DNA from: Pseudisothecium myosuroides
Lineage: Eukaryota; Streptophyta; Bryopsida; Hypnales; Lembophyllaceae
DNA: 64,000 bases
NCBI GenBank assembly: GCA_951799445.1
Contig: OX637294.1
Span: 23,337,452 to 23,401,451 of the forward strand
Reading direction: 5' to 3'
Under the pieces are notes generated by a model that saw only the letters and a list, made by a program, of their open reading frames with translations, did not search any database and was not told where the DNA came from. The position numbers and the translations under genes were made by a program. Below, one piece after another: positions 12,064-36,810 of this stretch (positions within the stretch are counted from its first letter, which is position 1; each line of letters opens with the position of its first letter).

Positions 12064-12438
12064 AGTCTCATTGTCCCCTTGGGAGACAGAATGGATTTTG
12101 GGTAGGCTTCTAGGGTCTCAATTTTTGTCATAATTTTTTGAAATTGTTTCCAAAGATAGGAAAATACATTAGTTTTCTGGGAGTATCATTTTTATTTGAA
12201 TTGGTGCCAGGGAGCAAAGTTATGCCAGCGGCCTAAGTCCAAAATGGGGTTTGTTGGGTAGTACAATAAAAATCAGAAAAAGTCAAACTAAAATTCTCAA
12301 TTAATTTTTTTATAGAAAGTATTTTTGTTTGCATGGAAAGATTTGATTATTCTATTTGGACTAGTATTGAGAAAGTTATGGGAAATCTTGTCTACTAGGC
12401 AATCTAAATGTCTTTGTGAGAAAATAACATGTAGGATT
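12060..12438 (+). mobile_element. TTAA-type element, left part, split by the LTR retrotransposon
   Basis: After TTAA it reads CATTGTCCCCTTGGGAGACA, matching the GTTGTCCC-type left end of the unit at 33955, and stays collinear with 35891-36806 and 33955-34892. It stops at GTAGGATT (12431-12438), where the retrotransposon begins; the other half resumes at 31218. The left end is degenerate. Confidence 0.65.
12434..12438. other. Target-site duplication GGATT, left
   Basis: GGATT directly outside the left LTR. The same 5 bp follow the right LTR at 31218-31222. Related unoccupied repeat copies, for example near 34340, have one GTAGGATTCA at this point, so the duplication is well supported. Confidence 0.93.
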
Positions 12439-15073
12439 TGTAATGTAGATTTTGCCTACTCGACAAAACCCCAAGACAATAAATATAGGGGGGTAATTCC
12501 TCTAGGAAAGGTCAATAAGTCTGATGTTTTATGACTAAAGTCACTCGTTTTGTATGGTGGATACTTGTTTACTTTGTTTTGTAGTTTGATTTATAGACAA
12601 CAACCCAAGGAAATAGTAGAGAAGTTCTAAAATCTTGGGAATGGTCAAATAGTCACTTGTTTCCTAGGATGAAAAGGAATTCAATATGAACTATCAAACT
12701 ATTTCTTAATAGACAATTTGTACACTCTTATACCCAAGGGAATAATTTGTTGGCCAGTCCATTAAATAATGCTATGGGACGCATGATTGCTGTCTCGGTC
12801 CTGTCTAGTATGCTAGGGGTATTTCAAGACAATTTGTCAGGTTGTTCAACAATTTGTCATGCATGATCTAGACTTTTAAATGCAACAATTCGCATATATA
12901 TTTATATATAATATATAGATTCCTTAATTACCATAAAGTTTTTTTACCATAACAATTTGTCCAGTCACTACTTAGCTAGCCAAATTACTAATTTTAAATG
13001 AGTATCAAAACAGTCCCAGTCCTCTACAACAAATTGTCCCTATACTAATGCAGGGGGAATGAGTGTGTAATGCAATACAATTTATAACATCAACAACAAC
13101 AAGGCAATTTATCCAACACACCATTCATATAACCACAGCATTTCTATATTCACCGCTACTCATACAAATTGACCTAATTATCAATCAGGACAATACTCCA
13201 CTCAATACTCAGTCAATTTGTCTCACTAAGTATCTCCTGATCCTACTAATCTCAGGGATAAATCAATTTTCAGTAAACTAAATTTATATCAATAAGTTGT
13301 CTGTACACTACTACACTATCTGCGGCCCAGTTTGGTACTACGTCAATTTGTCCTGTAATCCCGACCCACTGTGACTGAATTGTTTAAACAGTGTCACCAT
13401 ATCCAAGACAAATTGTCTGTTAGATCCCTAATCTAAATCCAGGCTAACACCCAGGGATCCAGACAATTCGTTTTTATTCTACTTATTGTATTATCATCTC
13501 AGAATTTCAATCATGAAGAATTCAATTCAATTCTGGACAACTTAACTATGCACTCACAACACAGGATTCAATCACACATACACCAATTTGATACAATTTA
13601 ATTTCATACATCAAGCACATGAGACTAAGTCAAATTGTCATACCTGGATTCAATGCTTCATACTCAGCTCTCCCGATTTCAATCACACACACTCCCAGTT
13701 ATACCATTCAACATAATTCAATTATTTAAATTCATTGTGACCATTTTAGACAACTTTTCATATATCTCTGCCAGGTATTAGAAACTTGATCTAATTCTCT
13801 CTTATGAATCACCTCTACTATTTTGACAATTTGTCTAAGTCCAATTCTATACTGAATCTCTGATACTCATTTCAAAACTATTAACTCATGTAATAGATGT
13901 AACTTAACTACACAAAGATATAAATTAATCAAGACAATTTGTCAAATTTATGAATTAGAAGGATTTAAAAACTTAGCTGGAAGTCAGTTGATCTTCCTCT
14001 CTGCATCCCTTGCTTGGCAAATTGTCTTGGTCTGCTCACAGCCTCCGCAGCATCACCATTGACAGACTGGTTGACAAATCGTCTGCTTCGTTCGTTTTAC
14101 GAGAGCAACACAGACAAATTGACTTCCAATCCCGATAAATTGCCATCCATTTCCTCACAGTAACACTCCGACAATTCAACTCATACACTCATGATACAAA
14201 AACTAATTCAGTCAATTTGTCTTAACATGTATTCACAACCACATAATTCGCACAAATTTGCACCACACAGTTTCAACAACTCAATACATAAATCACGACC
14301 CATAATTCCAGCAGAGTAAGCACACACATAATTTCACCGACAATTTGTTACACAAATCATTTCAACAACCATAAATTCATCACAAGAAATCTGCACACAA
14401 TTCTACACAAAGAATTTACAGTCACCTTGACGTCTCTCACAGTAGCAGAGCCTGTTCACTGGTTTGCAAAAGAATTCGACAAGTTGCCCAGTGTTACAAT
14501 CCACTCATTGGATCAACACCAACAAGCTCACAATTTTATAATTACACAATCAAAACACAAGCACCAGGAAGACAATTAGTCACAAGTAAACGAAGAGATC
14601 CAATCATTGGATACTCAAGACAATTTATTAAATTAATTCACAGTTCAGAGGATCCAATCACTGGATCTTGACTGGAAATTATAGAATGCTCAATTTAGTC
14701 CAATCCCTGGATCTAAATTTAGAGCTTATAGACAAATTTTTTATAAGAAATATTATATTATTGAAGAAGTTCAGAGTACATGAAGACGAGACAATTTGAC
14801 AAAAGCTATTTGATAACCGAGAAAGTGAGAGAGAGAAAATGACAAATTGCCTGGCTATATGCAAAACTAAAGACAACTATTCAAACCCGAAGTGTAGAGT
14901 CAACTTGTCTTTTGCCATCTTAAACCTTTTATGTGTTTTTTTTTTTCTAAATCCTTTCTAATCTGGCAATTTGTCCATATTACTACTCTATTGTGTGAAC
15001 TCTTCGTCAATTTGTCTCTATTTACACTATTCACAGCAAATTGTCAAAAAATTGAAAATTTCAAGAGACTACA
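12439..15073 (-). repeat. 3' LTR (left copy)
   Basis: It is 2,635 bp and ends in TG...CA. It is non-coding and holds four exact GACAAWTTGTC motifs (12828, 13407, 13825, 13933) plus more than twenty near-matches, all between about 12712 and 15045. The first 273 bp on the plus strand (the R/U5 end in element orientation) has none. Differences from the other LTR seen by eye lie near 13866, 14739, 14898 and 14942. Confidence 0.95.
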
Positions 15074-15086
15074 TAGCCCCCTACTT
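15074..15086 (-). other. Polypurine tract of the retrotransposon
   Basis: On the minus strand AAGTAGGGGGCTA lies directly before the 3' LTR start TGTAGTC. A purine run at this place primes plus-strand DNA synthesis in LTR elements. Confidence 0.75.
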
Positions 15087-15104
15087 AGCTTATTGACGCC
15101 CTCG

Positions 15105-17165
15105 TCAATATTTCCTTGGTCGCTTCTGGTTACGATTCTGATTCTGCCGATTCAGACGCTGCCGCTTTGCCTTGGCCACTGCCTTGTCAACTTGTAGATC
15201 TCTGGCAAGTAGTCCTGGATTGTTGTCACCTTGCGACTCGTACCAATATTGCCACGCCCAGTAGCGAGTGCATGGAAATTCGTTGATGAAGCATAAATGA
15301 ATACCCGCCCAAAAATGGGTAATGGCCATAACTTCCAAAATCCGGTGCCAACGTGTCCCCTGGTGCTGGATCTTAAGGCAGAGATGAAATTCAGGTCGCT
15401 GCCGGTCAAAGTGATTAATGTTGGCCAAAATCTTGTGTTGCCTGCACATCTCAGCCAAAAACTTGCAAAACACCGCAGCTCTGAAACAGACTGGATCGGT
15501 ATGAGTCTGGTGCGCCTCATAGAAAGCTTCATAAGATTCTGAACATTGTTCAGGCGTGTTGAATCTCCCTCCAATAATGGGCCAGTTGTACTCCACGGAG
15601 TCGATGGTGGCATGGGGATCCCACTTATGCCTCCTAGGGCAATTACAAAAATGACCATTTGTCAAAACAGCAGGTGGCGGATTTACTTGCCAGTCCCCTG
15701 AAATATTCAAATAGACTTGATCATACGACTGCTCCTCCTTCACCGTTTGCCCATAATCTTCCGTGAGCCACTCCAATGCTTTACATGATGGGATAGGCAG
15801 TTCTTCATTCATGTCATTAAACAAATTGTAGTATTTCCCTAAAAACTGCTTTGTTAAAATAGAACCTTGCACTGGAGGAGTGACTTTCATCCAGCTAGCC
15901 GGCTTGTAGTCGGGCGGTGGTAAAACAAATTGGCTGGAGTCCCTAGTATCAGGAATCACCAAGTCGTACTGGGCTGCTCTATCCATAATCTTCTCCAGTC
16001 GAGTAAATGTCTGATGCAAATTGTAAACGTAGTGGCTGTTAGTAAGCTCACCCCGCTGGAATATCTGCTCCCGCTCCAGACAATTTGTCATAACTTCGTG
16101 AATTACATGTCCTTTACCCGGAACTTTAATGGCATCCTTTAGCTCTCTCAGCTCCATCATCCGAGCTTTGGCCAAATGGTCTGGAAGGACTTCCTCAGGA
16201 CAAATTGTCAAGCGATGGTCTGCAATATGCACCCGCCGCTCAGTCTCCTCAGCAACATCAATTTGTCTCTGACGGCGATGCTGCTTCTCCAAGACAACGT
16301 AATACAGCAAAGCTCGCGCTCCAATATCCACAATGGGAAAAAATAACGATGACCAGTCTTCCAAAATCAAATCACCTCTCACGATCATTTCGCAGAGTAA
16401 GTTACGCTGGTTCTCCCCTGTCTCACTGATAAGCCAAATTTTCTCGAACATCTCGAGAGACAAAACTATTGCTCGTTCAACCTCGACAATTTGTAGAAAA
16501 ACATCCCGCTGGAGCTCATAGGTACGGAAAAGAGAGAAAGACGGAGGTGATTTTAACTGATTTTCCCACATCATCTCATGTAACTGCTCCTTCTCCTTCT
16601 CTAGCAGCTCTACTTTCGAATGCAATTCATCATTGGAGTTGATGAGAAGCTGTATATCAGTCTCATCTTCCTCAGACAAATTGTCTCTTGCACTGGCCTC
16701 GCCCACCTGTGGTACTCGCGGGTCCTTAACGCACGACAATTTGTCTTCCGCTTCCTTCAGCCTCTGCTCCAATTCCTCCTTCTCCTTTCTCGCATTGTGC
16801 CTCAATAATTTCATATTCTCCTGATGTACTTTAATGTCCCTCTTGTGGCTCTCCAATTGAGTCTTCATTTCAGCTATCTCTTTGTCTTGAGATGGTTGAC
16901 TCTTTATTTCTTGCAGCTTAGCCAAATGTCTTTGCTCTTGGAGATGAAGTCTCTCCTGCAGCTGGGCTTTTATTGTCTTCCATGAATCACGATCCCTCTT
17001 CATAGTAACCTGCAATGCTAACAAATTGCCTGCATGATCTTCATTATTCTTCAGGAGTTCTTCTGCCCTCTTGGCCAAATCGTCCTTCTCTTGTTTGATG
17101 ACCTTGACCTCCTGCTGCAATTTGTCTTCGCTGGCCAACGCGTTCTTCAACTCCGTGAGGATCAC
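15105..17165 (-). CDS. Env-position ORF B: coiled-coil protein with basic tail, function unknown
   Basis: 686 codons from a GTG at 17165; the frame is open back to 17231, overlapping ORF A, and has no ATG at its head. Residues 1-200 are a heptad-rich coiled coil (EKDDLAKRAEELLKNN, KEELEQRLKEAEDKL). Residues about 210-640 look globular, rich in Trp and His, with CNCPRRHKWDPHA near residue 515. The C-terminus is strongly basic (KAKRQRLNRQNQNRNQ then KRPRKY), like a nuclear or nucleic-acid-binding tail. No transmembrane segment is visible, so it is not a typical envelope protein. I do not recognise the family. It ends 31 bp before the 3' LTR. Six exact or near-exact palindrome motifs lie within it, in different codon phases. 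A dimeric binder of the element's own motif is an inference only. Confidence 0.75.
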   Translation of the reverse strand: MILTELKNALASEDKLQQEVKVIKQEKDDLAKRAEELLKNNEDHAGNLLALQVTMKRDRDSWKTIKAQLQERLHLQEQRHLAKLQEIKSQPSQDKEIAEMKTQLESHKRDIKVHQENMKLLRHNARKEKEELEQRLKEAEDKLSCVKDPRVPQVGEASARDNLSEEDETDIQLLINSNDELHSKVELLEKEKEQLHEMMWENQLKSPPSFSLFRTYELQRDVFLQIVEVERAIVLSLEMFEKIWLISETGENQRNLLCEMIVRGDLILEDWSSLFFPIVDIGARALLYYVVLEKQHRRQRQIDVAEETERRVHIADHRLTICPEEVLPDHLAKARMMELRELKDAIKVPGKGHVIHEVMTNCLEREQIFQRGELTNSHYVYNLHQTFTRLEKIMDRAAQYDLVIPDTRDSSQFVLPPPDYKPASWMKVTPPVQGSILTKQFLGKYYNLFNDMNEELPIPSCKALEWLTEDYGQTVKEEQSYDQVYLNISGDWQVNPPPAVLTNGHFCNCPRRHKWDPHATIDSVEYNWPIIGGRFNTPEQCSESYEAFYEAHQTHTDPVCFRAAVFCKFLAEMCRQHKILANINHFDRQRPEFHLCLKIQHQGTRWHRILEVMAITHFWAGIHLCFINEFPCTRYWAWQYWYESQGDNNPGLLARDLQVDKAVAKAKRQRLNRQNQNRNQKRPRKY

Positions 17166-18025
17166 CTCATTTTGAGTCTGCAGCTCCTTATACTGCTTGG
17201 TTGACTTGGGAGTGGGATTTTCTTCAAATTGTCACAAGAAGATTCGACTGGAGTCGCTAGTCCTGAACTCGGCGCGTGCTCTGCGGTCCTTTTCTCTTGA
17301 CAAGTTGTCTTCGTGGCTCGACTGCTCTCAGCCTCCAGCAATTTTGTTTCAATGGGCTGCACGTGCAAATCCTGCTTGGCAGTGGATCTGGCCATCTCAG
17401 AAATGTAGGTAGCGGAGATCAACGCCATTGGATTTCTAGACTTTTTACGAGCCAGCTCCATCTTGATCTGCATGTAGACAATTTGTCCCCAGTCCAACGG
17501 TTGTCCTCTCCATGCGGCCAATCCGGCTGACAAAGCATCTAGTGTGGCTAGGTCTGGACGACTTGCCATAAAAAGACGTTGGTTGACAAATTGTAACCAG
17601 TGACTCAGCGGAGCAGCTACCCGCAACAAATCCCATCCTCCTGCCTTCTTCGCAGCTTGAAAATTCTTTCCAAAAAGTTGCTCTTTTAACTCCTTAGACA
17701 CGGGGGAAATGGCGGTGAGTCCTTTTCCTTCGGGGGAAAATCCCAACAACTCTCCTAGTCTTCCTCCATCGAATTGGCAGGGTTTCCCTTGGATCATCAA
17801 TTTGTCAACAACTTGTCCGAAACTACTGGCCTTGACAAATTGTCGCACCTGTTCCATGTTAGGCTGGTCCCATTCTCTTTGAATATACTCCCACAAACCT
17901 GTAGAGCGGAGGTGGGTTTTCCGTTCTTCGACAATTTGTTGAAGGACCTCCTCAGGTATCTGGAACAGCGGAATAGGGAAGACCTTCAGCTCTTTCGGTG
18001 GAGCCATCTGACAATTTGTCATCAC
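17162..18025 (-). CDS. Env-position ORF A: plant-mobile-domain-like protein
   Basis: 287 codons, starting with two Met codons at the start of the region. The pattern QFDGGRLGELLGFSPEG, then APLSHWLQFVNQRL, then DWGQIVYMQIKMEL resembles the putative plant transposon protein domain (Transposase_32 type) often found in Athila-like and other plant elements; this is a weak match made from memory. The last about 23 codons look unrelated to a protein core, while the overlapping frame at 17231-17162 reads as the natural upstream continuation of ORF B's coiled coil. A and B were therefore probably one protein, separated by a one-base change near the GAAGAAAATCC run (about 17216-17226). No classic slippery heptamer is seen. 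Five motif copies lie in the ORF, one overlapping the start (MTNC). Confidence 0.7.
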   Translation of the reverse strand: MMTNCQMAPPKELKVFPIPLFQIPEEVLQQIVEERKTHLRSTGLWEYIQREWDQPNMEQVRQFVKASSFGQVVDKLMIQGKPCQFDGGRLGELLGFSPEGKGLTAISPVSKELKEQLFGKNFQAAKKAGGWDLLRVAAPLSHWLQFVNQRLFMASRPDLATLDALSAGLAAWRGQPLDWGQIVYMQIKMELARKKSRNPMALISATYISEMARSTAKQDLHVQPIETKLLEAESSRATKTTCQEKRTAEHAPSSGLATPVESSCDNLKKIPLPSQPSSIRSCRLKMR

Positions 18026-20403
18026 CTCAGCTCAGTATTTGAGTATGAGAAAAACAAAGAAACACTCTTAACACTCAGCCTTAGTCACTCAATTCAATGC
18101 TTCTCTTCTTCCAAGATTTCATAACTCAACACTCATTCTTTCAAGTTTCTCATTTTCTTTCACACTTATTTTCTCTCATTATGTTCTTATATTAGTCTCA
18201 CTTTCAGTCCAGTTGTCTTACAAAGCTCACGGGAGTCATACCCTGAATCTCTCGGAAAACTTTCTTTACTCTCGAATAATTTACTCCTTCAAGCTTCTTA
18301 TACTTCAATAATTTGTCTTCTTACTGTGGTTACAAGCAATTTGAATTCACATTGACAATTTGACTTAGACTCTATACTGCTAATCTCTCTCTCAAGTGGT
18401 TCAGCTCTCAATTCGCATTGTGCTCATTTTCTCTCAGCTCTCATTTTCTCTGAGCTAACCGACTTATTTCTTACTTCCTGTCAAATTGTCTGATTCCTCA
18501 CGAAAGCAGTTCCTGAGTCCAACTCGGAATTCTCACTTAATCACTCTTTAAATTGCTTCCTCATGCTTCGATAAATTGTTCTCATATTATCCACTTCACT
18601 TCTTGGAAAACAAATTTGATTTATTATGAATTATTCTTGATCACTTTCACTCTCAGTTTGGTATAACAATTTGTCTGTAAATTATCAAATTATCAGTATT
18701 CTATCTACACGACCAATTGTTTTACTGATTCTGAAGTTGCTCCCTCAGGCTTCTGAATCTCAAAGCTGCAGCCTTTCTTTTCTTCTTCCATTTAGTCAAT
18801 TGGTCTTGTTGTTCTTTTTATCATGTTTTATCATCTTTCAAGAATTTCACTCAAATTATTTATATTCTCTCTTTATATTTTCCTTTCACAACAGGCACTG
18901 ACAATTTGTCTTAGTTAATACAATTATCCTTCAGTTATTCTAACTCTTGGATCTACAACTGTTAAATTGTCTATATCTTTCGTAAGCAGCCATTCTATAG
19001 ACAAATTGTTTTGCACCCTATTTTATTCGAAAACCATCAGTTCACTCGGTGATTTACTCAGTCATTGGCAATTTGTCTATAAGACTTACCAGCAGGTATA
19101 ACGATTTGCTATTCTCACTTCTCTTGGAAACAGTTTCTCCTGGACAAATTGTCTATATGGCCTTCTTCAACTAAACTGATCCAATAACAATTTAACCCTA
19201 TTAGTTGAAACTAGAGACCGGTTTTAAAACTCACAGTCTTCATCAGATGACCACTCGTCCACTTGCTTTTCTTTGACGACAATTAGTTATTATTTCCAAT
19301 TCGATTAGCAAGAAGCATTAAGATTTTAGTTTCTCATTTTCAACTGCAGCAAACTTGAATTATTTTTAACTTAACTAACACAGTTTCTTTTCTGAACAAT
19401 TGTCAGTTAATTGAGCACCACCAAAAACTCTAGGACAATTTGTCAAAGTCGATTCTACATACACCTCTCAATCTTACAACAACCAGTTAACTTAAACGTG
19501 CTTTCGGCAAATCATGTCTGAGTTCTGACTATCAATACTTTCCAGAACAAAGAATTAGGCAAATTGTCTCTCATTTCATCCTCTTATTAAATCAATTTGA
19601 GAACTTCAAGATTAGTGTTTTAAGGTTCTTCTTTACAATAACTTAATCATGAAATTAGGGTTACAAAGTTCCCGCAAACAAATTGTCACGCTTCATGATT
19701 CTTTGAAAGACTGACAATTTATTTGATGGAAAGAATTCAAACCTGATTAACGCAAACAACCTGTCTTGCTCAGAGAATGAGGAACCAACAATTGCTCGCA
19801 CAATGCTTGAAAACTCCCTTTCTTGCGCTCTTCAAACCCTGTCTTAGTTTTCCAAGACAAATTGTTAATAACTTTACTAAATCCTCTCAATTTGGCAATT
19901 TGCTCTCGTCAATTTCTCAACACACGTTTTCTCACTCAACCGAAAATAAGAAGCTTACCAATTGTACACACCTCGACAAATTGTCCGCCGCTTAATCACT
20001 CGCATACCGGCCGCAATGCGCACAAACAATTTGCCCTAATCTTACTTTGGACAAATTGTCGTTCGCTAATCGGGTGAAGATCTGAGTTACCGGTACAGCC
20101 GGTAGCTCATTATTAAATTTCAAATTGTTCTTTTCATTTAATGCAGGGTATTATTTTCAATATCCTTATCCAAAAATTAATACCCCGTCAAATTGTACTT
20201 ACATTACTTATTTATTAATTTGTAATGCTTATGTAATCATTTCCTTTGATTATTATTTTATGTCAATTTGTCTTTGTAATAATATATATTTTTAATAATA
20301 TAATTTCCAAAAAATAAATTCAAAAATTATAAAGAAATATAGACACTACTTGTTAAATATTCAATTAGTATAGCCTGCCCTCTACTTAATTCAGAACTTG
20401 TCC
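18026..20403 (-). other. Motif-rich spacer between Gag-Pol and the extra ORFs
   Basis: 2.4 kb with no significant ORF on either strand. It is CT-rich on the plus strand toward 18100-19000. It carries five exact GACAAWTTGTC copies and about twenty near-matches. In Athila-like elements this interval separates pol from an env-like gene that may be expressed from a spliced or internal transcript. I cannot place a promoter or splice site with confidence. Confidence 0.7.
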
Positions 20404-23400
20404 TCAAGTTATGTAAGGTTTTAAACGATAACCATTATACCTTGTAGAATGAATATTACCGGCAAAATCCTGCAATTCGACAGACCCATTAGAATATGAT
20501 TTTAAAACTTTATACGGGCCAAACCATCGCATTTTGAATTTGCCTGGAAATTTTTGGAATCGACTATCAAATAAAAGAACTAAATCATCCGGTAACAAAT
20601 TCTTGGGGATTAGTTTACTATCATAGTAACTTTTTCTTCGATTTTGAATAGCCAAAGTATTTAAATAGGCTTGACGTCTAGTTTCATCTAATTTTTCCAA
20701 CATGACCATTCTCTCTTGTAAAGATTCCATATCACCTAGTCTATGATCTAGGGCAATTCTTAAAGATTGTACTTCCAATTCAATTGGTAGAATTGCTTCT
20801 TGTCCATAGACTAGTTGAAAAGGAGTATTTTTAGTAGTAACTTTGTAAGCAGTCCTATAAGCCCATAAAGCATCTAGGACTCTTGCATCCCAATCTATAT
20901 TAGACCCTTGGACTGTTTTGGTAATAATTTTACACAAAATACCATTGGTCTTTTCAGTTTGTCCATTTGCTCTTGGATGATAAGGACTAGTTTTTCTATG
21001 TTTTATAAAATATTTTTCTGTTAATTTTGTAATGGTGTCATTTATAAAATGGGTACCCCTATCACTAACCAATTCTTTGGGGCAACCAAATCGGGTAATA
21101 ATATTCTCATATAAGAATTTAGCCACTGTATTGGCATCGTCATTTCTTGTGGCAAGGGCCTCAGCCCATTTAGTTACATATTCAGTTGCCACAAGAATGT
21201 ATCTTTTTCTTCCTTCTCTACTTGGTGGGTTAATTGGACCTACAAAGTCTATGCCCCATTTTTCAAATGGAATTTGGGCTAAAATTGGGACTAAGGGCAT
21301 AGCAGTAGTAGGTGTGGGTTTTCCTACTCTCTGGCAGGGATCACATTTTCGTGTATATACTGCTGCATCAGAAAACATTGTGGGCCACCAATAGCCTGAT
21401 TGCAATGCTTTCTGGGCAGTGACTAATCCTGCAAAGTGCCCTCCACAAACATCGGTGTGGCAGCCTTCTAGGACTAAGGGTACTTCACTAGGGTTAATAC
21501 ATCGTCTTAGTATTTCATCTTTTCCCTTTTTATAAAGCATCCCACCAATTAGGGTATAAGGGCTAGTTTTATAGGCTAACATTTTCTTTTGTTTATCAGA
21601 ATATTCTAAAGGGAATTGTCCTGTGGAAAGAAAATGAATAATGTCTGCATATTCTGTAGGTATAACCTCAACTTGAAATAAGGCAGCATCAGGAAATTCA
21701 TCATTTATAGGTTCACTTCCTAATTCTTGGTTTATCCTAGAAAGATGGTCAGCATTAGCATGACTTTTTCCAAGTCTCACTTGAATAGTGAAATTAAATT
21801 CTTGTAGTAATAGAACCCATCGAGCTATTCGACCACTAAGTTGGGGTTTATTTATCATGTATTTTAATGCATCATGATCTACATGAAAAGTAAACTTATA
21901 ACCCAACAAATAGTGTCTGAATTTTTGAACAGAAAAGATCATTCCTAAGGCTTCTCTTTCTGTTATTGTGTAATTCTTTTCTGCAGCCGCCAATTGGCGA
22001 CTTGCAAAAAAAATTGGTTTATCATGTCCTTTTTCATCTTTTTGACTTAACACACTTCCTATTGCAACATTAGATGCATCAACATATACCTCAAAATCTT
22101 TATTCCAATCAGGGGGAATTAAGACAGGTGCAGTTGTTAATTTGTGTTTTAGAGTTTCAAATGCTTTTGTACAAGCTTCTGTCCAAATAGGAGGAGTTTC
22201 AGTCTTTTTAGTTAATTCGGTCAGAGGTATTGCTATATTAGCATACTTGTATATGTATCGCCTATAATACCCAACATGACCTAAAAAGGCTCTAACTTCT
22301 GTAATGGTATTAGGCTGAGATAATTGGACTATAATAGCAACTTTATCTGGGTCTGTGGCAATGCCTTGGCTAGAGACGATGTGACCTACCAATTTGCCAA
22401 AAGGTACAGCAAATTGGGACTTAGCTGCATTAATAGATATGCCATATTTCTCACACTGGACAAAACATTTTTCTAGACATTCTGCATGTTTATCTTTTGT
22501 GCTATAGACGCAGAAATCATCTAAAAATATTTCCATAAATTTTCTCAGATATAATTGAAAGGCTATGGTCATTAACCTTTGAAAGGTGGCTGGGGCATTA
22601 CACAAACCAAATGGCATTTTGGTATGGGCATAAATACCCCAGTCAGTGGTAAAGGCAGTTAATAGCCTATAAATTTGAGCAATTTGGATTTGATTATATC
22701 CAGAAAATCCGTCCATAAAGGAATAACATTCATGACCAGCCACACCATCTAATAAGGTGTCTGTGAATGGTAAAGGAAAATAATCCTTTTTGGTCACACT
22801 ATTTAATTTTCGATAGTCTTGACATATTCTAAGTTTTCCATTCTTTTTAGGAACTACGACAATTGGAGATACCCATTCACTATATGGTACTTCAAAGATA
22901 AATCCACAAGCTAAAAGCTTGTCAATTTCCTCTTTGACCATTAAGGAATATTTGGGGTTCATCCTATATTGTCTTTGCCTCACTGGTTTAGAATCAGGTT
23001 CTAGCACTATTTTGTGTTCACAAATTTCAGGTGGAACACCTTTTAAATCCGTATAGTTCCATGCAAATGAACTTCTATGTCTTTTAAAGAAGTTAGACCA
23101 ATATTTAAATTCGACTTTGGTCATTTTAGAATAAACTCTGATAATTTTAGGATTTTCATTAGTTCCTAAATTCATGTCTTGTAATGGTGTGTTTAAAGAT
23201 TCTTTAAAGTCTTTTCTTTGTAAAGGAGTGGTATCACTATGAACAAACATGTCATCTATTTCTCTTTCCTCAGATTGGGATTCGGGTTCTAACTCTGAAT
23301 TTTCATCAATACCTATATTTAGGACTTCAGAATTTTCCCATGCCAAAATAGCATCATCTGAATCTTCTATATTTGCTAGTGGGGTGAAATATTCACCTAA

Positions 23401-26400
23401 ACCAATACTTTTATAAGGCATTTCTTTATTAACTTTTTGTGTTTGTTCTTCCTCACTAGTTTCACTCTCATTATCCGTTTGGTTTTCTGAGGTGACACTA
23501 GTTCCGTCCTCTTGGGTTTCACCCCCATATTTTGTGGGAAAAAGAGGCAAAATAATTCTATTTTGTCCTTTACCTATGGTTAAGGTTCCTTTGCCCCAGT
23601 CATCTCTCGCTTTTGCTGAGTATAACCATGGTCTTCCCAATAAAATGGGATATGAGGAAATAGACTCTGTGAGTTTGAACACTATGTAATCAACTTTATA
23701 GTCTATCCCACCTATGGTTGTCACAATTTGTGTTAGGATTCCCATAGGTTTAACTCTACTTTGGTCAGCCATTCTTAAAATAATTGGAGTTGAGGTCATA
23801 GTGGTTAATCCCAATTCTTCCATAGTTTCGAAGTTCATGAGATTAACACTAGATCCACTATCAATTTGAACTCCATTTATTAAAGATCCATCAATTATTA
23901 CATCTACCGTAGGGGCTCCTGGATCCATGGAAATTTCATGAATTTCCAAAGGTTTAACCCTTTTTCTCACTAATGCTGTACTCAAGTCACTTCTGCATTT
24001 AGGAGAAATTGCTAGTAATTGTTTCATACTAATTTCAGGTTGAAGTTTATCAAGGTTAGCCAAAACATCATATGGTTCCATGCCAGATGTTAATTTCATA
24101 GATCTAGGCATTTTACGTTTTGGTGGAACTTGACTTTTTAAATTTATTCTCTTTGTAGGAATTTGATAAAAACTAGGGATAGTATTAGTAGAAATTGTTG
24201 GTAAATTTACTGGTGGATTTATGACTTGTGGTGGTATAGTTGATTGGGGTTGACTAGGTTGTTTAAGAAATTTTTCTTGCATTTCCTTCCAAGTCATTTC
24301 TTTATTAGGATGGTTGGAATCTAAAGGGATTTTTATTGGAGGTATCACTTCTTTTTCTTGTGTTAAATTTGGTTGTAAAGATGCTCTTGGCATTATAATT
24401 TTAGGTACTTCAAATTCACTTTCAAAATTATCAGAAATTTGGTTGTTTAGTAAATTTTGTTGAGCTGTTGTAGCTCTTGTGGCTACAAAGACATTTTCTG
24501 AGTTTGGTTCAAAAATAGAATGGGAAATATGATTTAAAGGTCTGGTATTTCCTTCTGCTTGGAATTGGACTTGTTTAGGTCTAGGATAATCTCTCTCAGA
24601 AGGTGGAAATTTTCTAGGTGGGGCAGTGCAGTCTTCAGGTAAATGACCTTGTTGACGACATCTGCCACAAAATGGTGAGTATCCTACTTGTTTTCTAGGG
24701 TTGGGACATTCATTAGAGTAATGACCTAATTCCCCACATCTATAACACACCACTTGCTTTCCCCTTTCTGGTGGACCATAACGGTGGGTGTTAGGGTTAG
24801 ATGGAGGTCCATTCCAAACTGGAGGTTCATTATAATTATCACCCCAACGGGGTCGATTGTCATTTGACTTATAGGATGATCCACTATTGGGTCTAGAAAA
24901 AGGTCTTTTATTAATATTTGTTTTGTTGACCCAAGGTTTAGTAGAATCAACTTGCAAGACTTGTTTTACAGTTCTCCAATCTTCTTTCATTGCTGCTAAA
25001 TTCCAACACTTTTCAGTGGGATGATTTCCTCCACAAAAAGTGCAACGAGATCTATTATCAGTATTTCCCGTAGTAGGTGATGGACATTCGGAAGGTAAAT
25101 GACCATGCCCTTGACAATTTGTACACCAGACATTTGTCCTGGTATTGTTAGGTTTTGACCTTTTAACTGGGGCATTAGTGATTTGAACCCTTAGGTCTGC
25201 CATTTCTTCTACTAATTTACTTAAGAGATCTGTCTTTGGGTCTTTGACCTCAAGTTTAGGAGGTATTGCTATGGTAGGTTGGATTGTTTGTGCAGGATAT
25301 GTTCTTAGGGGTGGTGTCTGATAAACAACTTGTTGATAGGGTACTCCTTGATTTCCCAAGGGAGGATATGCTAGATTTGGGGGATACATACCAGGATCTA
25401 TACTAGTCATCTGATCTTCCCCTATTCTGGCTTCTTCATAATGTTTAGCATAGGTTAATGCAGTGGCTAGGTCAACAGGATTCTTTTCCTTAATGGATAT
25501 TTTAAATTCAGGAGGATATAAACCTCCTACAAAAATTCCAGTTAAATAGGCATCAGGAATCCCATGACCTCGCCATCTTTGCAAAATATAGTCCATTCTA
25601 CCATAATAGCTATCAACAGTTTCTCCTACCATCATTCTTATGGTTCTTAAACGTTCCTGTAGACTTTCTGTAAAAGCTAATGGTCGAAATCTGGTCAAAA
25701 ATGCATCTTTTAATGCTTGCCAATTGACAAATGGGTTATGTGTTTGATACCATTCCTGAGCAGTCCCTAGCAGTGTTGCAGGAAATGTTACAAGGAAATT
25801 GGCTTCAGGTATCATATTGGCTGCACATACTATTTCGAATCTACTCATATGGTAGTCAGGATCAGTGCCTGCTTGACCATAATATTGAGGCAAAGTGACC
25901 AAATTAAAAGGACGTTGTGCCATGTTATAGTCTTCTACCCACGTATCTTCTTCAAATTCTGGGTTTTCTAAATCTAGATCAGAATCTTCAGATAATTCTG
26001 ATTCTGATTGAAGAGTTTGAAGAATTTGAAAAGGTTGCAAAGGTGGAAGACTTTGGAACGGTTGAAAAGGTTCTAAGCTTAATGCAAAAGGTGATCCTTG
26101 CAAACTATAAGGGTTAATATTTTCGTCCAAATTATAGTTTATAAATTGTCCTGAAGATATTTCCAAATGAGGTGGAGATTCAGGTGGAGATTCAATTCTC
26201 TCTGGTTGTGCCGAACCAGAGGAAGAAGCTCTTCTATTGTCTCTAAGTGGTGATAAATAATTTTCTAATCTATCTAACACACTAGGACTTTCTTCATTCC
26301 ATGTATTTCTTAAATACTCTGTTAAAGCAGCAATAGTTCTATAATCACCTGGTCTAGGTGTAGAAAGGTTAAATTGTTTTGGTGTGGAAAATAAATTTTC

Positions 26401-26883
26401 AACTGGATTAGGTGTTCTAGGAGATACTGGTGTGGGTGTTCTTAAAGGACTAATAGACGTTCTTTGTGGACTAACTGAAGATTGGTGCAATACTTGACTT
26501 ACAGAATCTTCAGTTATGGGATAAGGAAATTCTTCTCTTTCTAAAGATGTAGCAGTATCCGTTAAGGGAGTTCCTTGAGCAGCTATTTCTCCCCTTGTAG
26601 ATTCCTCAAATCCTTTAAATAGGTTAGCACTAACTTCAAAATCAATTTCTGATTCAGTTATTTCACTTTGAGATTCATTCTGGGTAGAATCTGTAACTAA
26701 TCTTTGAAATTGTCTGATAGATGATTCTGCAGTAGTGGGATCTACAGGACTAGGAGGAGGTTTAGGTGGTGAAAAACAGGGATTAATGTAAGTAGCCGCT
26801 GTTCTTCTATGTTTTGGTTTACTTTCTGCCTTAATTTTTCGTGTGGCGTCTCTTAATAAACGATCAGGCTTTTTGCCAGTCAT
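20404..26883 (-). CDS. gag-pol: Gag-Pol polyprotein, Ty3/gypsy (Athila/Tat-like)
   Basis: One 2,159-codon frame, intact. Residues 1-320 are a Ser/Pro-rich disordered leader. Residues 320-490 are the retrotransposon Gag core (ATLLGTAQEWY, LTRFRP). Four zinc knuckles follow at about 587-600, 614-626, 713-726 and 739-752, an unusually high number. The aspartic protease has DSGSS at 1008. Reverse transcriptase spans about 1320-1500, with FMDGFSGYNQI, MPFGLCNAPATFQR and a catalytic FLDD at 1453 in place of the common YxDD. RNase H (DAS, TEREAL, DHDAL) covers 1598-1715. Integrase has an HHCC finger at 1809-1850 and a catalytic triad D1879, D1941 and E1977, ending with a GPY module near 2122. No chromodomain. 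All catalytic residues are present, so the element may be autonomous. The motif field stops at its 3' end; only partial matches such as 25112 occur inside. Confidence 0.97.
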   Translation of the reverse strand: MTGKKPDRLLRDATRKIKAESKPKHRRTAATYINPCFSPPKPPPSPVDPTTAESSIRQFQRLVTDSTQNESQSEITESEIDFEVSANLFKGFEESTRGEIAAQGTPLTDTATSLEREEFPYPITEDSVSQVLHQSSVSPQRTSISPLRTPTPVSPRTPNPVENLFSTPKQFNLSTPRPGDYRTIAALTEYLRNTWNEESPSVLDRLENYLSPLRDNRRASSSGSAQPERIESPPESPPHLEISSGQFINYNLDENINPYSLQGSPFALSLEPFQPFQSLPPLQPFQILQTLQSESELSEDSDLDLENPEFEEDTWVEDYNMAQRPFNLVTLPQYYGQAGTDPDYHMSRFEIVCAANMIPEANFLVTFPATLLGTAQEWYQTHNPFVNWQALKDAFLTRFRPLAFTESLQERLRTIRMMVGETVDSYYGRMDYILQRWRGHGIPDAYLTGIFVGGLYPPEFKISIKEKNPVDLATALTYAKHYEEARIGEDQMTSIDPGMYPPNLAYPPLGNQGVPYQQVVYQTPPLRTYPAQTIQPTIAIPPKLEVKDPKTDLLSKLVEEMADLRVQITNAPVKRSKPNNTRTNVWCTNCQGHGHLPSECPSPTTGNTDNRSRCTFCGGNHPTEKCWNLAAMKEDWRTVKQVLQVDSTKPWVNKTNINKRPFSRPNSGSSYKSNDNRPRWGDNYNEPPVWNGPPSNPNTHRYGPPERGKQVVCYRCGELGHYSNECPNPRKQVGYSPFCGRCRQQGHLPEDCTAPPRKFPPSERDYPRPKQVQFQAEGNTRPLNHISHSIFEPNSENVFVATRATTAQQNLLNNQISDNFESEFEVPKIIMPRASLQPNLTQEKEVIPPIKIPLDSNHPNKEMTWKEMQEKFLKQPSQPQSTIPPQVINPPVNLPTISTNTIPSFYQIPTKRINLKSQVPPKRKMPRSMKLTSGMEPYDVLANLDKLQPEISMKQLLAISPKCRSDLSTALVRKRVKPLEIHEISMDPGAPTVDVIIDGSLINGVQIDSGSSVNLMNFETMEELGLTTMTSTPIILRMADQSRVKPMGILTQIVTTIGGIDYKVDYIVFKLTESISSYPILLGRPWLYSAKARDDWGKGTLTIGKGQNRIILPLFPTKYGGETQEDGTSVTSENQTDNESETSEEEQTQKVNKEMPYKSIGLGEYFTPLANIEDSDDAILAWENSEVLNIGIDENSELEPESQSEEREIDDMFVHSDTTPLQRKDFKESLNTPLQDMNLGTNENPKIIRVYSKMTKVEFKYWSNFFKRHRSSFAWNYTDLKGVPPEICEHKIVLEPDSKPVRQRQYRMNPKYSLMVKEEIDKLLACGFIFEVPYSEWVSPIVVVPKKNGKLRICQDYRKLNSVTKKDYFPLPFTDTLLDGVAGHECYSFMDGFSGYNQIQIAQIYRLLTAFTTDWGIYAHTKMPFGLCNAPATFQRLMTIAFQLYLRKFMEIFLDDFCVYSTKDKHAECLEKCFVQCEKYGISINAAKSQFAVPFGKLVGHIVSSQGIATDPDKVAIIVQLSQPNTITEVRAFLGHVGYYRRYIYKYANIAIPLTELTKKTETPPIWTEACTKAFETLKHKLTTAPVLIPPDWNKDFEVYVDASNVAIGSVLSQKDEKGHDKPIFFASRQLAAAEKNYTITEREALGMIFSVQKFRHYLLGYKFTFHVDHDALKYMINKPQLSGRIARWVLLLQEFNFTIQVRLGKSHANADHLSRINQELGSEPINDEFPDAALFQVEVIPTEYADIIHFLSTGQFPLEYSDKQKKMLAYKTSPYTLIGGMLYKKGKDEILRRCINPSEVPLVLEGCHTDVCGGHFAGLVTAQKALQSGYWWPTMFSDAAVYTRKCDPCQRVGKPTPTTAMPLVPILAQIPFEKWGIDFVGPINPPSREGRKRYILVATEYVTKWAEALATRNDDANTVAKFLYENIITRFGCPKELVSDRGTHFINDTITKLTEKYFIKHRKTSPYHPRANGQTEKTNGILCKIITKTVQGSNIDWDARVLDALWAYRTAYKVTTKNTPFQLVYGQEAILPIELEVQSLRIALDHRLGDMESLQERMVMLEKLDETRRQAYLNTLAIQNRRKSYYDSKLIPKNLLPDDLVLLFDSRFQKFPGKFKMRWFGPYKVLKSYSNGSVELQDFAGNIHSTRYNGYRLKPYIT

Positions 26884-27098
26884 TTACAGAGGCCATAGAG
26901 AAAGAATTTTTTTAAGTTTTTAGGTAAAAGGTTAAGTCAAAGTTTTTGCAACAAAAACCCCGGGAAACATTGGGGACCCTTTATCACAACATGTCGGGGT
27001 AACGAGCTCCCAATGCTCCCGAAGTTATCCCTCTATACTTGACTTGGGTTCTTATAGTAGAGATTTCGGGTCGGGACAATCGATATGGGATATTGCTC

Positions 27099-27617
27099 TT
27101 ACAGACGGAGGTAACTAAAACTAGTCGGGCAGACTAGACTAAACGATGGACTTAAAGGATTTATTTTCTCTTTACACATAAAGTCTGGGATAAGTGGAGT
27201 TACTGCTGGATTCATGGGTCCATAAGTAAATATATAAATTCTATTTATAATTTGAGTGCCAGTCCAAGCAGCATATGCTTTAGGTACTTTGCTTTTAGTT
27301 TGCGATTTTAATTTCCCGTATTGACTAATTAAATAGTGTAGGGAAAAATCAAAAAGCAATTATCCACTTTTCACAACAAATCCTTTCTTGAGTTCAAGCT
27401 TTTGCCAAACTTTACTAAAAATAATCCTCTTTATGTCTAAAGATAGTTGGTCTATGTTTTCTTTTAACTGCTTGTCTTTTATATGGATTCCACTTAACTG
27501 GAAACCTTGCCCAAAATATGCGTTTTTATATAAACGGTAAAGGGCCATAAAAAGACAAGGTCCTGAATAGTAGTCGTCTATTATTTCTGGAGCTTCCCAC
27601 GGAAACAAGTGTCCCAT
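27099..27617 (-). pseudogene. Retrotransposon ORF2, unknown protein with one in-frame stop
   Basis: Frame open from ATG 27617 (MGHLFPWEAPEIIDDYYSG) to a TAA at 27360-27362, then open again in the same frame to 27099. Translation across the stop gives about 170 residues of similar, plausible composition (KAYAAWTGTQIINRIYIF in the second half), so this is probably one gene with a single nonsense change. It lies between ORF1 and Gag-Pol. I do not recognise it. Accessory ORFs before gag are a feature of some Tat/Ogre elements. Confidence 0.5.
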
Positions 27618-27640
27618 TGTAATTCATTTACATATAATTT

Positions 27641-28213
27641 CTAGTGTAAATTTGACCTAATATCACGAATTACACTTTGTGATGGGTGAAAATAAATTAA
27701 CGTGTTAATAACAGTTCTTAATTGAAGTAAATTTCCTATGGGCGTTTCAGGATTTCCTAAATGATTCAAACTTCTAAGTATATTTTCAAAACCTGAATCA
27801 TATGAGACATACTGTTGTGTTGGAAGAGGTGGTTTGAAAAATTGAATTGGAATTGTAGGTCTAGAAAAAGGGGTAGCAGGAATTCTTCTTGTACTATCAA
27901 ATGCTTGTTTCTTAAAACAGGTGTTTTTAATGTGACCAGTTTCTCCACAAAAATGACAATTATGACCCTCTCTACGACCTTGGATTTTTGCTTTAGTGTA
28001 TGCCCTACTTTCTGTCAAGTTTATGTTTCTAGAAATTGATGTGGGTGGTTTCAAGGGGTTGGTAGCACGATTATAACTTAACAATGTTTCTATAGGTATG
28101 GTCCTTTTACAATAATTTGGAATTGGGGGTTGTTCTACTTTGTCCTCTTTAGGAAAGACATCTGCTAAAACCTCGTTTATGATTTCTTGGGTTATTTTCG
28201 TGCATTGACCCAT
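27641..28213 (-). CDS. Retrotransposon ORF1, small zinc-knuckle protein
   Basis: 190 codons beginning MGQCTKITQE, with Gly2 in a context that could allow N-myristoylation. One CCHC knuckle lies at about residues 84-97 (CHFCGETGHIKNTC, C-X2-C-X4-H-X4-C), followed by a Pro/Arg-rich stretch. It sits between the primer site and Gag-Pol. A separate nucleic-acid-binding ORF upstream of a Gag that already has four knuckles is unusual. It could be a second nucleocapsid-like protein or an RNA chaperone; this is inference. Confidence 0.65.
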   Translation of the reverse strand: MGQCTKITQEIINEVLADVFPKEDKVEQPPIPNYCKRTIPIETLLSYNRATNPLKPPTSISRNINLTESRAYTKAKIQGRREGHNCHFCGETGHIKNTCFKKQAFDSTRRIPATPFSRPTIPIQFFKPPLPTQQYVSYDSGFENILRSLNHLGNPETPIGNLLQLRTVINTLIYFHPSQSVIRDIRSNLH

Positions 28214-28561
28214 GTTTACGGCTCTAATAAGGTATCTACCATAATAATAATAATTATTTTTTATTTTTTATTTTTTTATTTATTTATTTTATTTTCTAAA
28301 TTTTATTTTCTAAATTTTTATAAGTAATAAGTATCCCTTACCTTCTTAAAGTTTATCCAAAATCAAAAGTTCCAATTTTAAGAATTTTCTAATAAAGAAA
28401 ATACATGTCATTCCATTTCTAGTCTTAGAATTCTATAATGGAAGATACATAATCTATTTTCTTTAGATAATTTTTCTTAAAATTTATTTTCTCTGAATAT
28501 GGATAAAATCTAAATAAAGGTATTTCTACTCTACATTTTAGCCACCATTAGCCAGGACCTT
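28214..28561 (-). other. Retrotransposon leader, AT-rich
   Basis: Untranslated leader between primer site and ORF1. It is very AT-rich, with runs of ATTT near 28255-28320. It has no exact motif copies and no long ORF. Confidence 0.6.
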
Positions 28562-28579
28562 TCCCCGGCAGCGGCGCCA
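28562..28579 (-). other. Primer-binding site complementary to tRNA-Asp
   Basis: On the minus strand TGGCGCCGCTGCCGGGGA lies 3 nt after the 5' LTR end. It differs at one position from the complement of the plant cytosolic tRNA-Asp 3' end, the primer known from Athila and other plant Ty3/gypsy elements. Confidence 0.92.
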
Positions 28580-28855
28580 AAATGTAATGTAGATTTTGCC
28601 TACTCGACAAAACCCCAAGACAATAAATATAGGGGGGTAATTCCTCTAGGAAAGGTCAATAAGTCTGATGTTTTATGACTAAAGTCACTCGTTTTGTATG
28701 GTGGATACTTGTTTACTTTGTTTTGTAGTTTGATTTATAGACAACAACCCAAGGAAATAGTAGAGAAGTTCTAAAATCTTGGGAATGGTCAAATAGTCAC
28801 TTGTTTCCTAGGATGAAAAGGAATTCAATATGAACTATCAAACTATTTCTTAATA

Positions 28856-31190
28856 GACAATTTGTACACTCTTATACCCAAGGGAATAATTTGTTGGCCA
28901 GTCCATTAAATAATGCTATGGGACGCATGATTGCTGTCTCGGTCCTGTCTAGTATGCTAGGGGTATTTCAAGACAATTTGTCAGGTTGTTCAACAATTTG
29001 TCATGCATGATCTAGACTTTTAAATGCAACAATTCGCATATATATTTATATATAATATATAGATTCCTTAATTACCATAAAGTTTTTTTACCATAACAAT
29101 TTGTCCAGTCACTACTTAGCTAGCCAAATTACTAATTTTAAATGAGTATCAAAACAGTCCCAGTCCTCTACAACAAATTGTCCCTATACTAATGCAGGGG
29201 GAATGAGTGTGTAATGCAATACAATTTATAACATCAACAACAACAAGGCAATTTATCCAACACACCATTCATATAACCACAGCATTTCTATATTCACCGC
29301 TACTCATACAAATTGACCTAATTATCAATCAGGACAATACTCCACTCAATACTCAGTCAATTTGTCTCACTAAGTATCTCCTGATCCTACTAATCTCAGG
29401 GATAAATCAATTTTCAGTAAACTAAATTTATATCAATAAGTTGTCTGTACACTACTACACTATCTGCGGCCCAGTTTGGTACTACGTCAATTTGTCCTGT
29501 AATCCCGACCCACTGTGACTGAATTGTTTAAACAGTGTCACCATATCCAAGACAAATTGTCTGTTAGATCCCTAATCTAAATCCAGGCTAACACCCAGGG
29601 ATCCAGACAATTCGTTTTTATTCTACTTATTGTATTATCATCTCAGAATTTCAATCATGAAGAATTCAATTCAATTCTGGACAACTTAACTATGCACTCA
29701 CAACACAGGATTCAATCACACATACACCAATTTGATACAATTTAATTTCATACATCAAGCACATGAGACTAAGTCAAATTGTCATACCTGGATTCAATGC
29801 TTCATACTCAGCTCTCCCGATTTCAATCACACACACTCCCAGTTATACCATTCAACATAATTCAATTATTTAAATTCATTGTGACCATTTTAGACAACTT
29901 TTCATATATCTCTGCCAGGTATTAGAAACTTGATCTAATTCTCTCTTATGAATCACCTCTACTATTTTGACAATTTGTCTAAGTCCAATTCTATACTGAA
30001 TCTCTGATATTCATTTCAAAACTATTAACTCATGTAATAGATGTAACTTAACTACACAAAGATATAAATTAATCAAGACAATTTGTCAAATTTATGAATT
30101 AGAAGGATTTAAAAACTTAGCTGGAAGTCAGTTGATCTTCCTCTCTGCATCCCTTGCTTGGCAAATTGTCTTGGTCTGCTCACAGCCTCCGCAGCATCAC
30201 CATTGACAGACTGGTTGACAAATCGTCTGCTTCGTTCGTTTTACGAGAGCAACACAGACAAATTGACTTCCAATCCCGATAAATTGCCATCCATTTCCTC
30301 ACAGTAACACTCCGACAATTCAACTCATACACTCATGATACAAAAACTAATTCAGTCAATTTGTCTTAACATGTATTCACAACCACATAATTCGCACAAA
30401 TTTGCACCACACAGTTTCAACAACTCAATACATAAATCACGACCCATAATTCCAGCAGAGTAAGCACACACATAATTTCACCGACAATTTGTTACACAAA
30501 TCATTTCAACAACCATAAATTCATCACAAGAAATCTGCACACAATTCTACACAAAGAATTTACAGTCACCTTGACGTCTCTCACAGTAGCAGAGCCTGTT
30601 CACTGGTTTGCAAAAGAATTCGACAAGTTGCCCAGTGTTACAATCCACTCATTGGATCAACACCAACAAGCTCACAATTTTATAATTACACAATCAAAAC
30701 ACAAGCACCAGGAAGACAATTAGTCACAAGTAAACGAAGAGATCCAATCATTGGATACTCAAGACAATTTATTAAATTAATTCACAGTTCAGAGGATCCA
30801 ATCACTGGATCTTGACTGGAAATTATAGAATGCTCAATTTAGTCCAATCCCTGGATCTAAATTTAGAGCTTATAGACAAATTGTTTATAAGAAATATTAT
30901 ATTATTGAAGAAGTTCAGAGTACATGAAGACGAGACAATTTGACAAAAGCTATTTGATAACCGAGAAAGTGAGAGAGAGAAAATGACAAATTGCCTGGCT
31001 ATATGCAAAACTAAAGACAACTATTCAAACCCGAAGTGTAGGGTCAACTTGTCTTTTGCCATCTTAAACCTTTTATGTGTTGTTTTTTTTCTAAATCCTT
31101 TCTAATCTGGCAATTTGTCCATATTACTACTCTATTGTGTGAACTCTTCGTCAATTTGTCTCTATTTACACTATTCACAGCAAATTGTCA
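28856..31190. repeat. Field of GACAAWTTGTC palindromes in the 5' LTR
   Basis: Same motif set as in the left LTR: four exact copies and over twenty near-matches. None occur in 28583-28855, the R/U5 end. The field therefore sits in U3, upstream of and around the expected promoter. Confidence 0.9.
29036..29062 (-). promoter_or_regulatory. Possible TATA box of the 5' LTR
   Basis: On the minus strand a TATATATTATATATAAATA tract is the strongest TATA-like stretch in the LTR. Transcription starting here would leave a 430-bp R/U5, and this matches the point below which motif copies become sparse. Based on composition only. Confidence 0.3.
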
Positions 31191-31217
31191 AAAAATTGAA
31201 AATTTCAAGAGACTACA

Positions 31218-31222
31218 GGATT
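31218..31222. other. Target-site duplication GGATT, right
   Basis: Second copy of the GGATT found at 12434-12438, directly after the right LTR end ACTACA. Confidence 0.93.
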
Positions 31223-31770: not shown

Positions 31771-31882
31771 GGATATATAGAGGGGCTCAAAACGGATTCA
31801 ATAAAAGCATCTTCAATCCAAAATCCGGATGTTCTACTTGCATGCCCCTCCAAGTGTGATATTGGCTATACAAATCAGTGTC

Positions 31883-33786: not shown

Positions 33787-33954
33787 TACTGAGGCGGAAA
33801 CACATATAGGGCCGGGGTGGACTGACCCCCTTGCTTGGCCGCTCAAGAAAATGCTGAATTTTTTAATTTTCCACACATGACAAAATTTGCAAATTTTGAA
33901 TTCATATTTGCAATCAAAGGCCCCCAGTTAGCTAGGAGAGGTGTTCAAGGTAAA
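33787..33954. other. Shared repeat fragment
   Basis: GGAAACACATATAGG at about 33797 recurs at about 37844. The segment 33882-33948 recurs at 9370-9440. Non-coding. Confidence 0.5.
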
Positions 33955-36806: not shown

Positions 36807-36810
36807 TCCC

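Follow-up and report, generated by a model that had tools for sequence, protein, structure and literature searches.

Among the closest described parallels to the element considered here are the VANDAL transposons, in which the protein VANC21 binds the motif YAGTATTAY, found densely and often as tandem repeats in the noncoding regions of VANDAL21 (PMC5735166), and in which related VANCs recognize other motifs (PMC5735166, PMC10398659). The element itself is a long terminal repeat (LTR) retrotransposon of the moss Pseudisothecium myosuroides (genome of 388 Mb in 222 contigs), and lies in a window of 64,000 nucleotides (nt) of contig OX637294.1 (23,337,452-23,401,451). Its 3' part combines many copies of the palindrome GACAAWTTGTC with an additional open reading frame (ORF) downstream of pol. 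At least five classes of such palindromes coexist in this one genome, and in sequence comparisons the motif class is tied to the 3' ORF rather than to the pol end, with a switch in class where the similarity between two subfamilies, A and C, breaks off. The palindromes are probably the binding sites of a dimeric DNA-binding protein made from the 3' ORF, which would de-silence or activate its own subfamily; that the ORF product is the binder and that it acts as a dimer are both inferred.

The likeness to VANDAL/VANC consists in a dense, short, family-specific motif that is sparse elsewhere and is matched to a diverged protein gene, here by association and with one subfamily, E, excepted. The differences are equally plain. 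VANDAL is an Arabidopsis Mutator-like DNA transposon, whereas the moss element has LTRs, gag, reverse transcriptase (RT), RNase H, and integrase. The VANDAL motif is non-palindromic, lies in one orientation, and occurs mainly in noncoding tandem repeats, whereas the moss motif is palindromic, dispersed among unrelated flanks, and present in coding sequence as well. Finally, binding and loss of methylation have been demonstrated for VANC, whereas binding by the product of the moss ORF is predicted. We tentatively suggest, with slightly less than even confidence, that the moss system is a retrotransposon counterpart of VANDAL/VANC, of independent origin, in which a dimeric factor and a private palindrome in each subfamily would open or protect only kin and would be exchanged as a cassette.

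Palindromes in high copy number are also known from the Sireviruses (Ty1/copia), where 8-32 repeated motifs per element occur in the LTRs and before the env-like gene (PMC2829016); in 12 of 13 cases they have a CGG-CCG core, and they are concentrated in the LTR's upper half and ahead of ENV, with a tentative ascription to host stress factors (PMC2829016). As in the moss, the palindromes stand in the LTRs and, in env-bearing members, beside an extra 3' gene, their sequence varies around a common core, and the Tnd-1 motif (ACAATCGATTGT) resembles the moss half-site. In the moss element, however, integrase follows RT and the core is CAAWTTG or related instead of CGG-CCG, and section 9 of the Sirevirus paper (PMC2829016) mentions neither co-variation with the extra ORF nor module exchange. 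An earlier note on this stretch of DNA knew of nothing alike in LTR elements, a claim that the Sirevirus motifs narrow; what survives of it is that an LTR element with an ORF-motif pairing was not found among the titles and abstract openings of the listed papers from the open literature, subscription papers lying outside that scope. As far as found, then, a private motif paired with an element protein is known for a DNA transposon and seemingly new for a retrotransposon.

The 3' ORF has its own parallels. Athila 14 of sunflower carries a sense extra ORF with similarity to PF20167 (Transposase_32) and nuclear localization signals (PMC11728184), and one sunflower Athila cluster exhibits a pronounced drop in LTR methylation (PMC12844716). 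The moss element is likewise Ty3/gypsy without a chromodomain match, and its sense 3' ORF has a weak, sub-cut-off match to PF20167; a motif array is not mentioned for Athila in the accessible part of PMC11728184. In Retand, the long region between pol and the 3' LTR contains antisense TRP28 ORFs for a suspected DNA-binding regulator (PMC11963269), so that both elements have a long coding region at this place with a suspected (Retand) or candidate (moss) DNA-binding product. The TRP28 ORFs, unlike the moss ORF, are antisense, contain PF04195, and are accompanied by tandem arrays, whereas the moss ORF is sense and its palindromes are dispersed. PF04195 was not found in four ORFs of the window or in nine ORF pieces of its relatives, and the longest antisense frame within 15074-20403 (121 amino acids (aa), the only one scanned) has no Pfam match.

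The palindrome is present in the window in 20 exact copies, all 20 inside the element, with four in each LTR and twelve in unique DNA (16079-20060), exactly as the earlier note had counted them by eye; 100 dinucleotide shuffles of the window give a mean of 0.06 and a maximum of 1. The enrichment over a dinucleotide-matched shuffle, which the same note had set as a test, also holds. The unique 16,144 bp (one LTR plus the internal region) contain 16 exact sites, 32 with one mismatch, and 36 with two, where 200 shuffles give means of 0.03, 0.49, and 6.5 and maxima of 1, 3, and 13; the 45,221 bp of the window outside the element contain 0, 1, and 23. The claim of irregular spacing and unrelated flanks was likewise borne out. 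Spacing has a median of 122 bp and a range of 20-647, and for the 47 sites in 12439-20403 with no more than one mismatch, flanks of 25 bp have a mean identity of 0.262, against 0.264 at random positions, in a comparison that omits pairs closer than 47 bp. As the flanks are unrelated, duplication of longer blocks does not explain the copies; within 12000-32000, no family of direct repeats other than the LTR pair itself was found (seed 20, minimum length 60).

Some of the earlier statements need trimming. The motif was described as scattered through the retrotransposon, and all exact copies are indeed within it, but 47 of the 48 sites in the unique part (at most one mismatch, as in the densities that follow) are confined to 12439-20403, that is, to the 3' LTR, the 3' ORFs, and the spacer between pol and ORF. 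The LTR has 8.0 sites per kb, the spacer 5.9, the 3' ORF 4.1, and gag-pol 0.2, and the 5' part has none; the array nearly ceases at the pol end, gag-pol has a single one-mismatch site, at 25113, and 26884-28582 has none. Among the one-mismatch sites, 27 of 31 mismatches fall at positions 1, 2, 10, and 11, which are the positions varying among classes A, C, F, and D1, while the core CAAWTTG is almost fixed. The element, placed at 12712..31190, is one giant LTR element as claimed, but its true extent is 12439-31217, on the minus strand, with these parts:

12439..31217, minus strand: whole LTR retrotransposon with Ty3/gypsy domain order, 18,779 bp, target-site duplication GGATT
28583..31217, minus strand: 5' LTR (element sense), 4 exact motifs
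20404..26883, minus strand: gag-pol ORF of 2,159 aa, with gag, CCHC, a weak protease match, RT, RNase H, and integrase
18032..20403, minus strand: noncoding spacer from pol to 3' ORF, ~2.4 kb, 5 exact and 9 one-mismatch motifs
15105..18031, minus strand: 3' ORF region, here in two frames, 17162-18031 (289 aa) and 15105-17231 (708 aa); candidate motif-binding protein
18010..18020, minus strand: exact motif over the first ATG of the 3' ORF, ATGACAAATTGTC
12439..15073, minus strand: 3' LTR, 4 exact and 17 one-mismatch motifs, 8.0 per kb
12712..20272, no strand: extent of the motif array within a single module copy, between the outermost sites with at most one mismatch

In Pfam searches, RT (1344-1494 of the polyprotein) precedes the integrase core (1871-1970), which gives the Ty3/gypsy order, and gag-pol has no chromodomain match at an expectation value of 0.1. 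The two downstream frames, which the earlier note treated as separate products, are in fact a single frame of 914-975 codons in 10 of 11 other copies at least 96% identical (975 codons in nine, one of them flagged with two internal stops, and 914 in the tenth; the eleventh has 774). The window ORF is thus split despite LTRs (2,635 bp each) that differ at merely 4 positions, most siblings having one long frame. The motif at 18010-18020, on the ORF start, may have an autoregulatory role; five codons further on there is a second ATG.

A genome search with the 708-aa ORF, in which 63 of 189 candidates were scored, gave at least 67 matches of 25-100% identity, and relatives were sampled as 30 loci and 13 stretches of 10 kb, several around the same loci. 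Motif discovery in 14 modules was palindrome-constrained, blind to the window motif, and compared with 6 shuffles each; in 12 of the 14 the motif beats the best shuffle, with score ratios of 1.45 to 3.2 for the higher-scoring width. Class A (two modules) is GACAAwTTGTC and class B is GwCAAwTTGwC; class C (two modules) reads GTCAAwTTGAC or GkCAAwTTGmC; class D1 (three modules) is CCAANTTGG, found as CCAA.TTGG; class D2 (three modules, L041, L044, and L046) is CwATwG, an even-spaced palindrome; and class F appeared as CwAwTwG in this search and is also written GC-N-AWT-N-GC. Most classes have a common C..A.T..G core. At CAANTTG cores, which are few in D2 and E, the outer dinucleotides are GA in A (51-52%), GT in C (44-48%), TC in D1 (42-45%), and GG in F (22-25%), indicating that both half-sites change together and that dozens of sites change along with them.

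In a second set of 15 shorter loci, eight yielded palindromes of the same architecture that scored 1.8-2.9 times as high as the best of 6 shuffles. These were C-type in L022, L031, and L032, GC.AwT.GC in L029 and L033, GwC.AwT.GwC in L018 and L019, and r.C.A.T.G.y in L020. Six others (L023, L024, L025, L028, L030, L034) had no clear motif, with ratios of 0.54-1.28 at width 13, and in L027 the search was dominated by one repeated word. The two sets are not independent because five of the shorter loci overlap or resemble 10-kb loci (among them L022, L031, and L033, a relative of L029). Strongly over-represented words were also seen in relatives of the 3' ORF, ACTCCAAA and ATCTTCAA in L027 and GGATGAAA in L018, and may be tandem repeats.

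That class and ORF travel together is seen in two C loci, L037 and L038, whose pol ends match the window at 94.6% over about 1.1 kb and at 95.3% over about 1.3 kb, respectively, and whose LTRs match it at about 97% over the last 177 bp. Between these two regions blastn returns only two pieces of ~100 bp, and the U3 regions of A and C are unalignable except near their ends. The similarity breaks ~165 nt before the end of pol: L038 differs from the window at 12 third positions in 360 pol codons and then at 27 in the last 55, which marks a recombination junction. The shared LTR end begins near a TATA-like box. The two borders in the window are as follows:

20376..20571, minus strand: stretch where near-identity to the C subfamily stops, from the last ~165 nt of pol to just past its stop
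12439..12615, minus strand: terminal ~177 bp of the LTR, from the TATA-like box to the end, ~97% match in two C-subfamily loci

Across this junction the A and C 3' ORFs share 46% of residues in a C-terminal stretch of 487 aa and 32% in a stretch of 317 aa from the N-terminal part, and the sites in spacer, ORF, and LTR number 7, 7, and 13 of class C against 2, 0, and 4 of class A in L037, and 7, 5, and 16 against 1, 1, and 2 in L038. A backbone with R/U5 from one parent and a 3' ORF with U3 from the other would fit a single template switch between co-packaged RNAs. For the L037 element, the 5' LTR was located at C11:9022580-9024885, with 100% identity over the part searched.

Two further mosaics bear on this linkage. 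In L015 the 3' ORF is 97.2% identical to A at the DNA level and the LTR end (about 640 bp) is 99% identical to that of the window, while the first 1.5 kb of its U3 aligns with other A LTRs only over the first ~91 bp and one ~69-bp piece. This 1.5-kb U3 nevertheless holds 12 sites of class A and 2 of class C (one site can fall in both counts), at a density similar to A, so that the class follows the ORF even where U3 has been replaced. Subfamily B combines an LTR 96% identical to that of the window with an ORF 65% identical over 416 aa; class A dominates in its LTR and its spacer is mixed, with 10, 8, and 6 sites of GA, GT, and GG. An LTR search gave at least 44 matches (40 of 141 candidates scored), with several U3 types among the copies. 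In the B-type locus L036 (8825-10000), pol similarity spans only 91 bp upstream of the spacer, and the locus is therefore probably truncated or interrupted there. One pair of A-type LTRs (G000:C9:20726911 and C9:20748804) is ~21.9 kb apart from start to start, in excess of the usual 16.1 kb, which suggests a nested insertion.

Positions of the sites turn over while their number is roughly kept, a point that the earlier note had singled out for testing: A and B noncoding regions have 14 and 10 sites with 1 in common, in a poor alignment (49%). Other pairs share more, with seven common sites among 12 and 13 in the A and B ORFs, 12 among 13 and 16 in the C LTRs, and 17 among 21 and 22 in the LTRs of the window and L035, which are 87% identical; in this last pair the motif columns are 92.3% identical and other columns 86.1%. 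The 3' ORFs also carry more sites than the protein sequence requires. Against 200 synonymous codon shuffles per ORF, the A ORF has 12 sites (mean 2.18), the D1 ORFs 8 and 10 (0.63 and 1.02), and the D2 ORF 26 (8.2), values reached by 0 of 200 shuffles in each case; the C ORFs have 3 and 4 (0.61 and 0.59), reached by 1 and 0 of 200. The A gag-pol shows no excess (1 site against 0.42, reached by 75 of 200), whereas pol of D1 (5 against 0.64) and of D2 in L044 (27 against 9.5) does.

How could such an array serve its element? Tens of sites would label U3, the spacer between pol and ORF, and the ORF as "self," and the bound 3' ORF protein would most likely keep chromatin open or activate the U3 promoter, in its own subfamily only. 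As subfamilies diverge, the outer bases of both half-sites would change along with the protein, and the motif-plus-ORF module may be swapped as a block between gag-pol backbones. Taken singly, each outcome is less likely than not, de-silencing being somewhat the more probable and activation without it the less. The ratio of observed to expected CpG (o/e) offers a mixed and indirect hint of low methylation in the motif-bearing 3' modules: it is 0.64-0.87 in the 3' ORF of motif-bearing A, B, C, D1, and D2 against 0.27-0.34 in E, and 0.52-0.92 against 0.35-0.39 in the spacer, and in pol it is 0.56-0.70 in D1 and D2, where pol has motifs, 0.27-0.34 in A and C, where it does not, and 0.43-0.52 in E. 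Self-recognition by the 3' ORF product is favored because it best accounts for the linkage of ORF and motif.

Host transcription factors might instead bind the motifs, with every subfamily adapted to its own paralogue within a single factor family, as has been proposed for the Sirevirus motifs. Palindromes crowded into U3 typically act as cis-activators, the sites recovered by the authors for the Sirevirus motifs were mainly those of stress factors (PMC2829016), and the C..A.T..G core shared by most classes is what sites of a single protein family would show. Such an origin is nonetheless unlikely for an array that extends over 8 kb, including coding sequence above synonymous expectation and the 3' spacer, whose class tracks the ORF across a recombination junction, and of which there are at least five classes in one genome.

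Still less probable is that the 3' ORF product binds the motif for packaging, for nuclear import of the complementary DNA, or for steering integration to sibling elements. The motif does lie within the element's own sequence, and the ORF is placed like env-like genes, with a predicted coiled coil. No site at up to one mismatch occurs, however, in the 5' part or in gag, the regions in which one would look for packaging signals, and since the motif is strand-symmetric and a stem of 5 bp cannot close on a loop of 1 nt, an RNA hairpin signal is unlikely.

That the motif is bound by a different protein of the element (integrase or gag) seems highly improbable: integrases do bind LTR ends, and pol of D1 and D2 carries motifs too, but the pol ends of A and C, the part of gag-pol compared, are nearly identical while their motif classes differ. 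Least credible of all, given unrelated flanks, a gag-pol nearly without sites in the same element, positions that turn over at constant number, and a largely unalignable U3 that keeps its class, are neutral by-products of biased gene conversion, slippage, or template switching in reverse transcription, even though these elements do recombine.

Several observations weigh against self-recognition by the 3' ORF protein. Its layout comprises an N-terminal part, a predicted long coiled coil, a conserved C-terminal region of ~480 aa, and a basic tail, and Pfam recognizes no known DNA-binding domain in the 3' ORF proteins. The N-terminal matches to PF20167 are weak (expectation values of 3.4e-5 in E, 5.5e-4 in C, and 0.022 in the 289-aa frame of the window, all below the curated cut-off), the 971-aa A protein has no such match, and PF03078 was found in none of the ORFs scanned. 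AlphaFold models are poor (mean predicted local distance difference test, pLDDT, of 57.1 and 54.0), and fold searches with them yielded nothing. What argues most against an obligatory link of ORF and motif is subfamily E, whose elements retain the 3' ORF without a detectable palindrome: in its two modules none stands out (scores of 343 against a best shuffle of 331 and 346 against 322, ratios of 1.04 and 1.07). In a tree of the C-terminal part (23 rows, midpoint root, with a long branch to D noted by the program), D1 and D2 split from the rest and E (five rows) forms a clade that sits within the motif-bearing ones, the branches leading to it being moderately supported (89/95, 84/80); E has thus most simply lost the motif, or the motif escaped detection.

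Further points on the same side come from conservation and composition. In the near-identical spacers of the window and L035, motif columns are 97.7% identical and other columns 98.8%. CpG o/e is low in the A-C LTRs (0.38-0.59) and the D1 3' part (0.33-0.40), is high in motif-free regions such as the 5' part of the window element (0.59) and the 3' part of the E locus L042 (0.71), and is only slightly higher near motifs than far from them (0.67/0.59 in A, 0.80/0.69 in C, 0.73/0.68 in D1). The comparison of A with C, finally, covers the pol end and the 3' module, which leaves a small probability for a factor linked to gag.

The role of extra "env-like" ORFs in plant LTR elements is a long-standing question, and here the ORF subfamilies come with their own candidate sites, which makes their function testable in vitro in a single experiment. 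Of the earlier proposal of a dimer-bound motif with an element-encoded protein, the symmetric change of half-sites, the linkage to the ORF, and the retention of class through U3 replacement give real support, whereas binding and escape from silencing are its predicted parts. If true, sequence-specific anti-silencing or self-activation would have had an independent origin in retrotransposons, and the coexistence in one genome of at least five motif classes and their diverged proteins would offer a natural series on how a protein changes its DNA specificity.

Two other features of the element lie at its 5' end, and neither carries the motif:

28553..28582, minus strand: primer-binding site region adjoining the 5' LTR, reading TGGCGCCGCTGCCGGGGA...
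27641..28267, minus strand: small upstream ORF of 208 aa with a weak CCHC match (expectation value 0.0084, below cut-off), without motif

The primer-binding site, TGGCGCCGCTGCCGGGGA, is putatively of the type found in Athila-like elements. The small ORF at 27641-28267, with its weak CCHC match, is separate from the gag-pol downstream of it, which already includes a gag and a zinc knuckle. Beyond the element, a repeat cluster in both orientations adjoins it at 31310-45321, with units of roughly 0.25-0.95 kb that are 71-88% alike; a 275-bp near-tandem duplication (79%) lies at 51206-51807 and a short tandem array at 54693-54975.

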